From Candidatus Caccoplasma merdipullorum (GTDB lineage: Bacteria > Bacteroidota > Bacteroidia > Bacteroidales > G3-4614): DNA of 37,268 nucleotides. The stretch spans positions 1 through 37,268 of the forward strand of contig JADIMW010000034.1 of the NCBI GenBank assembly GCA_017694415.1. The letters run 5' to 3'. The notes beneath the pieces are model-generated. The model was given only the letters and a program-made list of their open reading frames with translations, ran no database searches and had not been told where the DNA came from. Positions 3,357-9,635 of the stretch are shown piece after piece. The translations under genes and the position numbers were made by a program. Position 1 is the first letter of the stretch. Each line of letters opens with the position of its first letter.

Positions 3357-5099
3357 TTATGGTTGTTTCTTGAACAGGTAGCCTTCGATAGTGTTTATCG
3401 TGATTTCTCCGCCGGGCGATTTTTTGATGCCTATCGCCGTTATTATAATGCAATGCTGTTTTGTATCGCTCCGGGCTATGATTGGCTGCATCTCGTATTT
3501 CCCGTTTTTTTCGTCTTCTGCGAGTTTATTTATCTGTTGTACGGCGATTTCCAGCGTGTCGGACGATGATTCTTCAATTATTTCCGAAATCGGTATTGGT
3601 ATAATATCCGATCCTGTCTCTACATTTATGTTGCCTATGTATTTATCTACTCCGATAAATTCTCCGTAGCCTTCGGGGACTTTAATGCTTGTCCCCGGCA
3701 GTACTCTTCCGTAGAAAAACCTGTCTTCGTCTTGGCTGTGCCAGAATCCTGTTATCGCATAATCGATGTTTACATTTTCTTTTATCAAATCGCTGATGCT
3801 TCCTCTGCCGAAGTTTGTCTCCATGTATTCCATCTTTTCGGTTGCTGCGGCAACTTCTTTATCGGGTGTTGCAGCACACCATTGCTCGTATTGCTCTTTT
3901 GTAAGCGGAAGGGTGTTTTGCCCGTTTTGGGTAAATGCTTTTTCTATGTCGCTATGGAGTATGTTTCGCGTTATTGAGGTATAGTTTACGGGGAATACGG
4001 ATGTAATGAGGAAAACGGCTGCGAACGATATGGGTATCCAGCTTATTCGTTTTGCTCTTGTTACGAACAGTACCACGCATACCATATAACACCAGATATT
4101 GAATGTTATTATGTACAGGCGGTTGATTGTTATGCCGTAGTCGCAGAAGCGGCGGATTATGCCGACTGTCATAAGTAACAGCAACGGCAATATCAGTATC
4201 GGCAGCCACCGCGCTATTTTTTCATCCCATTTGCCGGCTTTGGCCTTTCTTACGGGGTATATGCAAAATTCCACTATCAGGCAGCCGAGCATCAGCAGGG
4301 TTACCAGCCACGATACCCACCCTGTGGGTAATTCCCATGTAACGAGTATTTTTGCTCCGTATATATACAGAACCGCCATGTATCCTGCCGTAAGTGGCAG
4401 AAACAGATAACGTAATGCAAAGGTAAGGATATTGCCGGGTAAGGGGCGATTGTCGTGCTTGGCTTCTCCTTGCGGCAAGAAGCCGATAAACAGCATAATG
4501 ACGAGCAGCAGGTTGCAGAATATCGACACATACCGATAGCTTTCATATGGTATTTCTATCCCGAACAGGCGGTTGAGGGACACGACCAGAAGGGATATGC
4601 CGCTGCACATGACTCCTCCGAGGATATTGGCTATTATAAAGGATTTGAAACTCCTTATTGCAAAGTTCCAACTCGGTATGTCATCTTTTTCCTTGAAGAA
4701 TGAGAGGAAAAAGAGGGTGAGCCACAATGAAAAGATTGCGGCTCCGTGGGCTATGCCTATTTCAATGCTGTATTTCTCGGCTGTTACGAAATAGAGTGTT
4801 ATGCTGTCTGCCAACAATGCAATGTGTGCTACGGATTGAATGAAGATTTTCCGTATTTTGCTCTTCACTTCTTCGCTCCATAGATGAAGGGTTAGGGTGA
4901 GTATAGTGCCTACCGAGAGATAATAGATTGTTATTAGAAATAATCTTTGGTCGGGGAACTCTCCTTCTACCGCTACATAATAGCATAACAGGCATGTGAG
5001 TGCCAATACGAAACTGACGGTTGCGGGGAATCGTTTGAAACAGCTGCTTATTGCATCGGTTATTTTGCCTGCGGCTCTTTTTATTATTGAGTCGGTCAT
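3357..5099 (-). CDS. DUF4153-family integral membrane protein
   Basis: A 580-residue protein with a short cytoplasmic N-terminus followed by about a dozen hydrophobic segments between residues 25 and 380 (for example FVLALTCLLCYYVAV, IALLADSITLYFV, ILILPLLLLMTVGII). A soluble C-terminal part of about 200 residues follows, with a lysine-rich middle. The overall pattern matches DUF4153 membrane proteins, which have no assigned biochemical role. The gene sits between prfA and pyrF with gaps of only 19 and 12 bases, so it is almost certainly co-transcribed with them. There are no obvious catalytic motifs in the C-terminal domain, which ends in a Gly-rich strand (KSPGGEITINTIEGYLF). I am fairly sure of the family and cannot give a function. 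Confidence 0.85.
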   Translation of the reverse strand: MTDSIIKRAAGKITDAISSCFKRFPATVSFVLALTCLLCYYVAVEGEFPDQRLFLITIYYLSVGTILTLTLHLWSEEVKSKIRKIFIQSVAHIALLADSITLYFVTAEKYSIEIGIAHGAAIFSLWLTLFFLSFFKEKDDIPSWNFAIRSFKSFIIANILGGVMCSGISLLVVSLNRLFGIEIPYESYRYVSIFCNLLLVIMLFIGFLPQGEAKHDNRPLPGNILTFALRYLFLPLTAGYMAVLYIYGAKILVTWELPTGWVSWLVTLLMLGCLIVEFCIYPVRKAKAGKWDEKIARWLPILILPLLLLMTVGIIRRFCDYGITINRLYIITFNIWCYMVCVVLFVTRAKRISWIPISFAAVFLITSVFPVNYTSITRNILHSDIEKAFTQNGQNTLPLTKEQYEQWCAATPDKEVAAATEKMEYMETNFGRGSISDLIKENVNIDYAITGFWHSQDEDRFFYGRVLPGTSIKVPEGYGEFIGVDKYIGNINVETGSDIIPIPISEIIEESSSDTLEIAVQQINKLAEDEKNGKYEMQPIIARSDTKQHCIIITAIGIKKSPGGEITINTIEGYLFKKQP

Positions 5100-6339: not shown

Positions 6340-7113
6340 TTACTTCAGCTTCTCCCGTATTTCGTTAAGGTACTTTATCATTCCTTTTCCGTCGCGACGG
6401 CTTATCATCTCCTGCAATACCGACAACTGTTTTTGTATTAAATCGAGTTGCGCAGGGGTATTGGGGTTGAACAGGATTTCTGTCAGAAGATAATCGTCTT
6501 CCGACAATAGCCCGCGTGCTATGTCCATGTGCTTTTTGAATGTCGTTCCGGGAGCGTCCTGATGCTTCATTACCGATGCAAATACAAGAGTGGATGCGAA
6601 CGGTATGGAGAGCGAATAGGCTATCGTTTCGTCATGTTCCTTGAACGTGTATTCGAATATGTTGAGGCGCAGCCTGCTGTACAAATCGCGAAAGAAGGTT
6701 TTTCCCAAATGGTCGGATTCCGATATTATTATGGTATTCTGCGTACTCAGATCGGAGAGATTGGCGAATGTCGGCCCGAACATCGGGTGCGTGGAGACGA
6801 ACGGCCTGCCTGCCTTTTTGTAAAATTCGGGCAGGCCTGTCTTCACGGATGCGATATCGGATATTATGCACCTCTCGGGCAGATACGGCAGGATTTTCTC
6901 GAACGCATCGATGGTATATTTTACCGTTACTGCGTTTATAAGGAGCTCGGGAGCAAATTCCTTTACTTCTTCGGGACTGGTGAAACGGTATGTGTTGAAT
7001 GTAAATCTCAACCGCTCGGTATCGGTCTCGAACATGGCTACTTCGTGTTCGAAACTTAATACGTCGGCAAAGAACGAGCCCATCTTGCCGGCTCCCATTA
7101 TCAATATCTTCAT
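6340..7113 (-). CDS. tyrA: Prephenate dehydrogenase
   Basis: A 257-residue NAD(P)-dependent enzyme that oxidatively decarboxylates prephenate to 4-hydroxyphenylpyruvate, the precursor of tyrosine. The N-terminal Rossmann motif is MKILIMGAGKMG (GxGxxG at residues 7-12), followed by an acidic residue at the end of the second strand (FETD). Conserved TyrA segments follow: ISDIASVKTG near 100 and STHPMFGPT near 125 (the His-Pro-Met-Phe-Gly-Pro signature of the substrate pocket). The helical dimerisation domain fills the C-terminal half. There is no ACT domain, so feedback control by tyrosine is not obvious from the sequence. It is the third gene of the attenuator-controlled operon and starts 22 bases after the DAHP synthase/chorismate mutase stop. 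It is followed by a strong terminator. Confidence 0.95.
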   Translation of the reverse strand: MKILIMGAGKMGSFFADVLSFEHEVAMFETDTERLRFTFNTYRFTSPEEVKEFAPELLINAVTVKYTIDAFEKILPYLPERCIISDIASVKTGLPEFYKKAGRPFVSTHPMFGPTFANLSDLSTQNTIIISESDHLGKTFFRDLYSRLRLNIFEYTFKEHDETIAYSLSIPFASTLVFASVMKHQDAPGTTFKKHMDIARGLLSEDDYLLTEILFNPNTPAQLDLIQKQLSVLQEMISRRDGKGMIKYLNEIREKLK

Positions 7114-7135: not shown

Positions 7136-8203
7136 TTACTTGTTCTGCAAAACGGTCATCTGCTGCCGTACGGACTCTTCGTGTATAGCCTGCATTACGA
7201 CTTTCATGAAATCGCCGTCCATGCCTGCTGCTTTTGCTTTTTCTATACGGTTGCCGAGTATCTCGTCGTATCGGGTTGCCTGCAATACGGTCATGTCGTG
7301 TTCTTTTTTGAACTGTCCTATTTCACGGGATACTCTCATGCGTTTTGCCAGCAGGTCTATCAAATCGTTGTCGAGATGGTCAATCTGGTTTCGCAAGTCG
7401 GATATGTCCTCGGTGGTATGTGTCTCGCGGATTACCAATGACTTGAGTATGTTGTCCAGAACTTCGGGGGTTACCTGTTGGTTCTTGTCGCTCCATGCGT
7501 AATCGGGCGAGCAGTGCGATTCTATTATCAATCCGTCGGCTCCGAGGTCCATCGCCTGCTGCGACAACGGCGCTATCAAATCGCGGCGGCCGCCGATATG
7601 GCTTGGGTCGCAGAATATCGGGAGGTCGGGTAACCGGCGGCGCAACTCAATAGGTATGTGCCACTGCGGGGCATTGCGATATACTTTTTCGTCGTAGCTG
7701 CTGAACCCGCGGTGTATTGCGCCTATCCGACGAAGTCCGGCATTGTAGATTCGCTGTATGCCGCCTATCCAGAGTTCTATGTCGGGGTTTACGGGGTTTT
7801 TTACCAGTACCGGGATGTCGGCTCCTTTCAGCGCATCGGCTATCTCCTGCATGGCAAAGGGATTGGTTGTGGTTCGCGCTCCTATCCAAAGTATGTCGAC
7901 ACCGTATTTCAATGCTTCCAATACATGGTACTGGGTTGCTACTTCGGTTGCTACGTACATGCCGGTTTCTTCTTTTACGCGACGCAGCCACAACAGGCCT
8001 TCGCTTCCGATTCCTTCGAAGCCTCCCGGTTTGGTGCGGGGTTTCCATATTCCTGCACGGAATATCTTTATTCCGCGTGCGGCCAAATCGTGTGCGGTTT
8101 CGAGTACTTGTTCTTCTGTTTCGGCACTGCACGGGCCGGCTATTACTATAGGGCGTTTGGTATCGACTCCGGGCAACTGAATGGGTTTGAATTGCATTTC
8201 CAT
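7136..8203 (-). CDS. Bifunctional DAHP synthase / chorismate mutase
   Basis: A 355-residue fusion. Residues 1 to about 255 are a type I-beta DAHP synthase (GPCSAETEEQ at 23-32; the KPRTKPGGFEGIG phosphoenolpyruvate/metal loop at 54-66; IGARTTTNPFAMQE; the CDPSHIGGRR metal site). It condenses phosphoenolpyruvate and erythrose-4-phosphate, the first shikimate-pathway step. Residues 266-355 are an AroQ-type chorismate mutase (DLRNQIDHLDNDLIDLLAKRM...), which converts chorismate to prephenate. The order DAHP synthase then mutase is the usual one in Bacteroidales. The fusion lets the mutase domain act as a prephenate/chorismate-sensing part of the synthase in related enzymes; that role here is inferred. 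It sits between the aminotransferase and tyrA, with 27- and 22-base gaps. Confidence 0.96.
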   Translation of the reverse strand: MEMQFKPIQLPGVDTKRPIVIAGPCSAETEEQVLETAHDLAARGIKIFRAGIWKPRTKPGGFEGIGSEGLLWLRRVKEETGMYVATEVATQYHVLEALKYGVDILWIGARTTTNPFAMQEIADALKGADIPVLVKNPVNPDIELWIGGIQRIYNAGLRRIGAIHRGFSSYDEKVYRNAPQWHIPIELRRRLPDLPIFCDPSHIGGRRDLIAPLSQQAMDLGADGLIIESHCSPDYAWSDKNQQVTPEVLDNILKSLVIRETHTTEDISDLRNQIDHLDNDLIDLLAKRMRVSREIGQFKKEHDMTVLQATRYDEILGNRIEKAKAAGMDGDFMKVVMQAIHEESVRQQMTVLQNK

Positions 8204-8230: not shown

Positions 8231-9421
8231 TTATTTGTTTATTGTCTGTTTTATTCTGTTTAATGCCTGTCGCAGCTTGTCTTCGGTTGCGCATAGCGAT
8301 ATTCGGATAAATTTGTCGCCTTCTGACCCGAAGACTATTCCGGGTGTTGCAAATACGCGGGCTTCGTAGAGGAGACGGTCGGCCAGTTCGGCTCCGTTTT
8401 TAAAGGTCTCGGGGACTTTTACCCAGAGGAACATTCCGCGTTGTGCCGGGTCGAAACTGCAATTTAGCGTACGGGCTATTTCTTCGGCCAACTCGCGACG
8501 GGGTTTATATACGGAATTTATCTCTTCGTACCATGTCTTGTCGGCATGGAGGGCTTCTGCGGCTGCTATCTGCATGGGGCGGAATGTTCCTGAATCGATA
8601 TTGCTTTTTACTCGCAGTACCCAATTTACGAATTCGGCATTGGAGGCCAGCATGCCTACTCTCCATCCGGGCATATTGTGCGATTTGCTCATTGAATTGA
8701 GTTCGATGCAGACTTCTTTTGCACCCGGTACGGAGAGTATGCTCAACGGCTTGTCGTTGAGTATAAAGCTGTACGGGTTGTCATTTACTATGACGATGTT
8801 GTGGCGGCGTCCGAATGCTACGAGGTTTTCAAACAATTCGCGCGATGCTACTTTTCCCGTGGGCATGTTGGGGTAGTTTACCCACATGAGCTTTACGTTC
8901 GACAGGTCGTTTTTTTCTATTTCTTCGAAATCGGGAAGCCAACTGTTTTCTTCTTTTAGGTTGTATGTTATTATGTTTGCTTCGGCCAAGCGGCTTACGG
9001 ACGTGTAGGTGGGATATCCGGGATTGGGGACCAATACTCCGTCGCCGGGGTTTACGAATGCGAGGGTTATGTGCAGAATGCCTTCTTTGGAACCGATGAG
9101 CGGCTGTATCTCTTTTGCGGGGTCGAGCGTTACGCCGAACCACTTTCCGTACCATTCGGCAAATGCTTCGCGCAACTGCGGGATTCCGACATACGGCTGG
9201 TATCCGTGGGCATTTGCTTTTTCGGCTTCGTTGGACAGTGCGGCTATTACCTCGGGGTGCGGCGGACGGTCGGGACTGCCTATTCCCAGACTTATTACGT
9301 CTAATCCGCGGGCGTTCATGTCGGCTACTTCTTTCAGTTTTTTGGAGAAATAGTACTCGCTTACGTTACTTACTCTCCTTGCCGGCGTAATTGCTTTTTT
9401 GCTGTTAGTATCTTCTGCCAT
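8231..9421 (-). CDS. PLP-dependent class I/II aminotransferase (probable aromatic aminotransferase)
   Basis: A 396-residue fold-type I aminotransferase. Recognisable parts are the cofactor-phosphate region IGSKEGILHITL near 109-120, VLVPNPGYPTY at 129-139, the Asn-Pro-Thr-like segment NYPNMPTGK at 182-190, the NDNPYS loop, and the Schiff-base lysine K246 in NSMSKSHNMPGWRVG. Sequence style is close to the LL-diaminopimelate/alanine aminotransferase-like group. Position at the head of a Phe/Tyr operon behind an aromatic-codon leader suggests it transaminates phenylpyruvate and 4-hydroxyphenylpyruvate; that substrate is inferred from context. The ATG at 9421 lies only 12 bases after the U-tract of the attenuator terminator, so the gene's expression depends directly on that switch. 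No Shine-Dalgarno sequence is visible. Confidence 0.92.
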   Translation of the reverse strand: MAEDTNSKKAITPARRVSNVSEYYFSKKLKEVADMNARGLDVISLGIGSPDRPPHPEVIAALSNEAEKANAHGYQPYVGIPQLREAFAEWYGKWFGVTLDPAKEIQPLIGSKEGILHITLAFVNPGDGVLVPNPGYPTYTSVSRLAEANIITYNLKEENSWLPDFEEIEKNDLSNVKLMWVNYPNMPTGKVASRELFENLVAFGRRHNIVIVNDNPYSFILNDKPLSILSVPGAKEVCIELNSMSKSHNMPGWRVGMLASNAEFVNWVLRVKSNIDSGTFRPMQIAAAEALHADKTWYEEINSVYKPRRELAEEIARTLNCSFDPAQRGMFLWVKVPETFKNGAELADRLLYEARVFATPGIVFGSEGDKFIRISLCATEDKLRQALNRIKQTINK

Positions 9422-9433
9422 AGTCGTACAAAT

Positions 9434-9463
9434 AAAAAATCCCGCTCTTTTTCAAGAACGGGA
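9434..9463 (-). terminator. Attenuator terminator hairpin
   Basis: TCCCGTTCTT (9463-9454), a GAAA tetraloop (9453-9450), AAGAGCGGGA (9449-9440) and six U residues (9439-9434). It is a compact 10-bp stem with one G-U pair and a GNRA loop, ending 12 bases before the aminotransferase ATG. Confidence 0.88.
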
Positions 9464-9520
9464 CCTTGTAATATTTTTAATTTTCCAATCTCTTGTCATA
9501 CGCACGAAATCCCGCTCTTA
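9434..9520 (-). promoter_or_regulatory. Phe/Tyr transcription attenuator (antiterminator/terminator switch)
   Basis: Reading the minus strand, the 13-base sequence AAGAGCGGGATTT occurs twice: at 9519-9507, starting inside the leader stop codon, and at 9449-9437. Between them lies TCCCGTTCTT (9463-9454). It can pair with the first copy (antiterminator, 10 bp with one G-U, loop of about 46 bases) or with the second (terminator). The two structures are mutually exclusive. A ribosome that finishes the leader would cover the first copy and let the terminator form. A ribosome stalled at the Phe/Tyr codons would leave it free to form the antiterminator. Confidence 0.85.
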
Positions 9521-9580
9521 CTTGTTGCTGAAGTAAAAGTAGTAATAAAAGTATGCGAATACAGAGATATTCTTTATCAT
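9518..9580 (-). CDS. Phe/Tyr-rich leader peptide of the aromatic operon
   Basis: A 20-codon reading frame from ATG at 9580 to TAA at 9520-9518. Residues 8-17 read FAYFYYYFYF: four Phe and five Tyr in ten codons, far beyond chance. It uses both TTT/TTC and TAT/TAC codons. It begins about 18 bases after the predicted transcription start and its stop codon overlaps the antiterminator arm. This is the layout of a leader peptide whose translation senses charged tRNA-Phe and tRNA-Tyr. The peptide itself probably has no function. The downstream genes make exactly these two amino acids. Confidence 0.88.
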   Translation of the reverse strand: MIKNISVFAYFYYYFYFSNK

Positions 9581-9604
9581 GGTCTTTTTGTTTTTTAGAC
9601 TGTG

Positions 9605-9635
9605 CAAATTTAGAGATAATTTTTGTTTGCGCAAA
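9605..9635 (-). promoter_or_regulatory. Bacteroidales promoter of the leader and aromatic operon
   Basis: On the minus strand TTTG (9635-9632), 19 bases, then TAAATTTG (9612-9605): an exact TTTG/TAnnTTTG match. Predicted start near 9598, about 18 bases before the leader ATG. The remaining stretch 9636-9801 is AT-rich and shows no gene. Confidence 0.78.

Follow-up and report, generated by a model that had tools for sequence, protein, structure and literature searches.

The region in front of an aminotransferase operon in Candidatus Caccoplasma merdipullorum (Bacteroidales) is very probably a ribosome-mediated transcription attenuator that senses the charging of both tRNA-Phe and tRNA-Tyr. It lies on the minus strand at 9635-9434 of the window, the whole 37,268-nucleotide stretch of DNA that was analysed (contig JADIMW010000034.1). 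This reading draws on the parts of the element, their exclusive pairing, covariation, gene context and the match of codons to gene content, all taken from the sequence and its comparison with relatives, and from it we infer where transcription starts and ends, that the leader is translated, where the ribosome stands and how the operon responds to metabolism. We also consider it likely that the element belongs to a family of aromatic attenuators spread across the phylum Bacteroidota that has been re-tuned in evolution to the genes behind it (mixed Phe and Tyr, Phe-only before pheA alone, Tyr-only where pheA is lost, with Trp added in some), and in which many lineages carry two orthogonal attenuators in series as a two-step starvation gate.

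Read along the minus strand, the element consists of a promoter, a 20-codon ORF, AAGAGCGGGATTT, TCCCGTTCTT, a GAAA loop, AAGAGCGGGATTT again and a six-T tract. Its parts, all of which are retained in homologues, and the genes behind it are as follows.

9632..9635, minus strand: -33 box TTTG of a Bacteroidota-type promoter, from the sequence, with a 19-base spacer to the -7 box
9605..9612, minus strand: -7 box TAAATTTG, consensus TAnnTTTG, from the sequence and homologous loci
9518..9580, minus strand: leader ORF MIKNISVFAYFYYYFYFSNK and stop, 20 codons, aromatic codons 8 and 10-17, kept in homologues
9531..9539, minus strand: region 1 (CTTTTACTT, codons 14-17), pairs with 9523-9515 as the 1:2 hairpin, from the MFE fold and weaker covariation
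9507..9519, minus strand: region 2 AAGAGCGGGATTT, 5' arm of the antiterminator, sharing bases with the leader stop codon, from 2:3 covariation
9454..9463, minus strand: region 3 TCCCGTTCTT, arm common to the antiterminator (with region 2) and the terminator (with region 4)
9437..9449, minus strand: region 4 AAGAGCGGGATTT, 3' arm of the terminator, from 3:4 covariation and the RNAalifold consensus
9434..9439, minus strand: U tract of the intrinsic terminator, six T, predicted 3' end of the attenuated RNA, T tract kept in homologues
8231..9421, minus strand: class I/II aminotransferase, first structural gene (Pfam PF00155)
7136..8203, minus strand: DAHP synthase fused to chorismate mutase (Pfam PF00793 and PF01817)
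6340..7113, minus strand: prephenate dehydrogenase, TyrA (Pfam PF02153; NCBIfam prephenate dehydrogenase)

The leader runs from an ATG at 9580-9578 to a TAA at 9520-9518 and holds nine aromatic residues within codons 8-17, just as a preliminary description of this DNA had it, base for base. The exact 13-base repeat AAGAGCGGGATTT, with copies at 9519-9507 and 9449-9437, was likewise found where that description placed it, as were TCCCGTTCTT at 9463-9454, which begins after a 43-base gap downstream of region 2, the GAAA loop and the six-U tract. The box consensus of the Bacteroidota-type promoter is established knowledge, and both boxes are present as claimed, but the distance of 18 bases given between promoter and ATG is wrong: 24 bases separate the end of the -7 box from the leader ATG, and 18 bases matches the inferred length of the 5' UTR. 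This was the sole error found in the observation. An intrinsic terminator thus stands between the leader ORF and the first structural gene, and the genes behind it make Phe and Tyr, the amino acids coded in the leader. The start codon of the aminotransferase (9421) comes 12 nt after the T tract and is left uncovered by the terminator, which speaks for transcription, as opposed to translation, as the step under control.

A short leader ORF rich in the codons of the regulated amino acids is hard to obtain by chance. No other ORF in the window reaches seven Phe/Tyr in ten codons, none of 60 dinucleotide-preserving shuffles of the window gave a short ORF with eight Phe/Tyr in ten codons, and the fold of the attenuator region scored z = -3.55 against shuffles. 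One alternative is an ordinary intrinsic terminator that always lets part of the transcription through, in which case the aromatic ORF and the copy of region 2 would be incidental. A good terminator is indeed present, but an aromatic ORF so far beyond chance, a Phe/Tyr mix that tracks gene content (see below) and the covariation of region 2 with region 3 all speak against this alternative, which we regard as very unlikely. The covariation was scored on an alignment of 53 non-redundant sequences (<80% identity) that had not been fitted to the tested structures. The antiterminator 2:3 scored 0.316 against 0.201 in shuffled alignments (reached in 0/500), with 72 cells changed on both sides, and the terminator 3:4 scored 0.392 against 0.215; relatedness inflates such shuffle tests, yet slid controls, which retain relatedness, scored far lower (at most 0.114 for 2:3). 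Since both pairings covary, region 3 co-evolves with two mutually exclusive partners. The 1:2 hairpin is part of the MFE fold as a weak duplex (-7.8 kcal/mol) and covaries only modestly, as expected where coding also constrains the bases of the codon run. Beside it, CATAC at the start of the aromatic run (9555-9551) can pair with GTATG downstream of region 2 (9501-9497), a pair also seen in many homologues that may lengthen the 1:2 hairpin. Taken together, the conserved leader, the covariation of 2:3 and 3:4, the promoter and the gene context support the preliminary interpretation of this region as having the anatomy of ribosome-mediated attenuation.

Under attenuation, transcription would start near 9598 and a ribosome would translate the 20-codon leader behind RNA polymerase. 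With charged tRNA-Phe and tRNA-Tyr plentiful, the ribosome would reach the stop codon and cover region 2, leaving region 3 to pair with region 4, and transcription would end in the U tract near 9434 to give an attenuated RNA of about 160-165 nt. Were either tRNA uncharged, the ribosome would stall in codons 8-17, region 2 would be free to pair with region 3, and the polymerase would read on into the aminotransferase, DAHPS/chorismate mutase and TyrA genes. Such a switch would confine the synthesis of aromatic amino acids to times of shortage. We modelled it on the assumption that the ribosome covers 12 bases beyond the A-site codon, a length taken from E. coli. For the window sequence, upstream RNA holds region 3 with a probability of 0.98-1.0 when the A-site lies anywhere from the second codon through one past the last Phe, and the modelled hold falls from two codons after the last Phe; with the ribosome at the stop codon the value is still 0.65, because of other weak pairings. 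The switch boundary lies 1-3 codons past the last aromatic codon in nearly all of 17 loci modelled, with one weak case (L051, ~0.5-0.6). Covariation, together with the model and its assumed footprint, therefore points to a mutually exclusive antiterminator whose 5' arm would be covered by a ribosome at the stop. When no ribosome is included, the terminator wins in the modelled full-length RNA (1.00), and before region 4 is made 2:3 is favoured (0.95 in the window, 0.07-0.98 in relatives); as the antiterminator is so often favoured at that stage, the behaviour of untranslated RNA is poorly predicted by the model.

An alternative-pairing switch does not by itself identify its sensor, and the leader RNA could in principle be read by a riboswitch, a T-box or an RNA-binding protein, with the ORF secondary. 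Against such a sensor, an Rfam scan of the window gave no match to a riboswitch, T-box or leader family at gathering score; extending it to E 10 gave sub-threshold hits only (PyrG_leader, 29.6 of 65 bits; Thr_leader, 20.6 of 55), and no T-box covariance-model match appeared in the window at E up to 10. The RNAalifold consensus fold of the homologues consists of the terminator only, with no conserved aptamer, and the conserved stretch from promoter to region 2 is the aromatic codon run itself. We thus judge a sensor other than the translating ribosome to be extremely unlikely. A nascent leader peptide that stalls the ribosome in the manner of an arrest peptide, sensing a small molecule instead of tRNA charging, would account for C-terminal motifs that are kept within clades, such as KVKREFVCVR in Bacteroides/Phocaeicola. 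This conserved stretch overlaps region 2, however, so RNA pairing explains its conservation; the order of Phe and Tyr varies freely, and codon content tracks the pathway product, as would be expected of tRNA sensing but not of an arrest motif. We accordingly give an arrest peptide next to no credence and retain the sensing of tRNA charging as our reading.

The preliminary description held that relatives with no aromatic leader or no alternative pairing at this place would speak against attenuation, and the outcome of this comparison favoured it: a conserved aromatic leader, covarying alternative arms and a conserved promoter were found in related genomes, in each case upstream of Phe/Tyr genes. 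Starting from the aminotransferase, 80 loci were fetched from other genomes, and nearly all show an aromatic leader with a terminator behind it. Most Bacteroidales have this leader in front of pheA, some 1 kb ahead of the aminotransferase; the operon of the window's genus has lost pheA, and there the aminotransferase comes right after the leader region. By an automatic rule, leader and terminator precede the Phe/Tyr operon in 196/206 gene-bearing loci. Of the ten loci that failed the rule, L099, L109, L112, L181, L201 and L220 show a leader on inspection, and L098 and L110 miss it because the contig ends there. L065 probably lacks it for the same reason, and L101 has no recognisable leader and may be a true absence. 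The promoter motif TAnnTTTG occurs at most 75 nt upstream of the leader ATG in 76/78 homologous loci, with 3.5 expected from shuffles. A covariance model matched 92/295 genomes of the order and 42/296 of the phylum, counts that were obtained with strict filters and are lower bounds, and wherever genes were readable at the fetched matches they were those for pheA, aminotransferase, DAHPS/CM or TyrA. To judge from these comparisons, the same predicted switch precedes the same genes across the phylum Bacteroidota. A search of the organism's own genome for His-codon runs and Trp-rich short ORFs found no further leader.

The codon mix of the putative leaders follows gene content. Both Phe and Tyr codons are present in all 189 of 189 leaders before pheA-containing operons. 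Where pheA is detached and has a leader of its own, the leader core holds Phe and no Tyr, as seen at three loci (L112, L119 and L180). The first of these belongs to the genome under study (G000), whose detached pheA has its own attenuator with the Phe-only leader MKHDTFRFFFFFAFFFCNGRNGVSYSY:

L112 1326-1409 and downstream (G000:C40:44074-44218): leader of the detached pheA, own genome, outside the window

A Phe-only leader also stands at the detached pheA of the close relative G007 (L119), and no aromatic leader was found at the detached pheA of six other species of the window's genus, so that G000 and G007 are the only members of the genus with the Phe-only leader. An independent Phe-only leader, MTRFFTHFFFFFTQQ, stands at the detached pheA of G025 (L180), and the tyrA-DAHPS operon of that genome has the leader MNNTFGYYAFYYYFFYNN. 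No prephenate dehydratase was found in G046, which has two Tyr-only leaders (YYYNYY and YHTYWYYYRY, L223), or in G144, which has a Tyr-rich leader (L220), although both are draft genomes (97% and 90% complete) that could be missing pheA. Overall, leaders with no pheA behind them have a higher Tyr fraction than those before pheA (Mann-Whitney p = 0.001; related genomes are not independent here, the small classes were sorted manually, and the covariance model was derived from mixed leaders). Outside the order, a Trp codon is often added to Phe and Tyr in the leader (L156, L159, L161, L162, L164, L175 and others; e.g., MKRFNTYFWFYYYFFKALPGFERVAVCC), as would suit regulation of DAHP synthase, the enzyme with which the synthesis of all three aromatic amino acids begins.

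Some 20 genomes carry two aromatic leaders one after the other ahead of the operon, each followed by a terminator of its own. Tandem arrangements were called in 18 genomes by the automatic rule and at L034, L178 and L223 by eye, and two further loci (L187 and L240) have two leaders, counted on leaders alone.

Tandem loci: L143, L145, L147, L177, L178, L179, L182, L186, L202 and L215-L218
Tandem loci, continued: L221, L223, L225, L226, L233, L234 and L239, and L034 at 3875-4123

In 38/40 comparisons across 20 tandem loci, region 2 prefers its own region 3 over that of the other module (mean pairing energy -12.9 against -8.4 kcal/mol), and the modules are thus largely insulated from each other. 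We know of no tandem ribosome-mediated attenuators described so far, within a search limited to the open-access literature. If our reading is correct, Phe and Tyr synthesis in a major gut phylum, where amino-acid regulation is poorly described, is under classical attenuation. It would also imply that transcription and translation in Bacteroidota are coupled closely enough for attenuation to work. Operon splits and gene losses would then form a natural experiment in which leader codons track pathway output, and the tandem attenuators would offer a testable circuit design.

The attenuators of Enterobacteria (pheA, trp, his, thr and ilvGMEDA) have a leader ORF in which codons for the end product abound, an alternative of antiterminator and terminator, and a terminator before the first gene. 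The present element shares this anatomy in all three respects; it differs in its interleaved Phe and Tyr codons, its phylum and promoter type, and in that no Rfam model matches it. The E. coli pheA leader is Phe-based, and leaders for several amino acids (thr, ilv) are classical. The latter qualifies the preliminary claim that sensing of two amino acids through interleaved Phe and Tyr codons in a Bacteroidales operon is little described, which is only partly right also because a putative attenuator has already been tabulated for the operon of a relative.

That entry, in Table 7 of PMC1173090 (2005) and drawn from Merino's database, places a putative attenuator before pheA > hisHb > aroAIbeta-aroQ > tyrA of B. 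thetaiotaomicron. Operon and position are the same as here, and the loci of B. fragilis (L061) and P. vulgatus (L060) carry a homologous leader; in the parts of that paper considered here the attenuator is a prediction, given with no leader peptide, sensed amino acid or conservation. In Flavobacterium psychrophilum, of a different class, leader-peptide attenuation was inferred from the transcriptome before amino-acid operons including pheA, whose 5' element is kept in the family and has no Rfam hit (PMC9723704, 2021). The B. thetaiotaomicron transcriptome map reports leader-like sORFs in 5' UTRs, the present case being absent from its main text (PMC7366714), and the main text of a 2010 survey of premature terminators makes no mention of Bacteroidetes (PMC2965389). 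A comparative study of attenuation from 2010 (Lopatovskaya et al., cited in PMC4833913) may already cover the element. The kind is thus known, and an earlier prediction of the site exists for a relative. Sequence comparison adds here which amino acids are probably sensed, the covariation, the spread across the phylum, the apparent tuning to gene content and the predicted tandem form; the last two, gene-content tuning and tandem arrays, are more novel than the rest.
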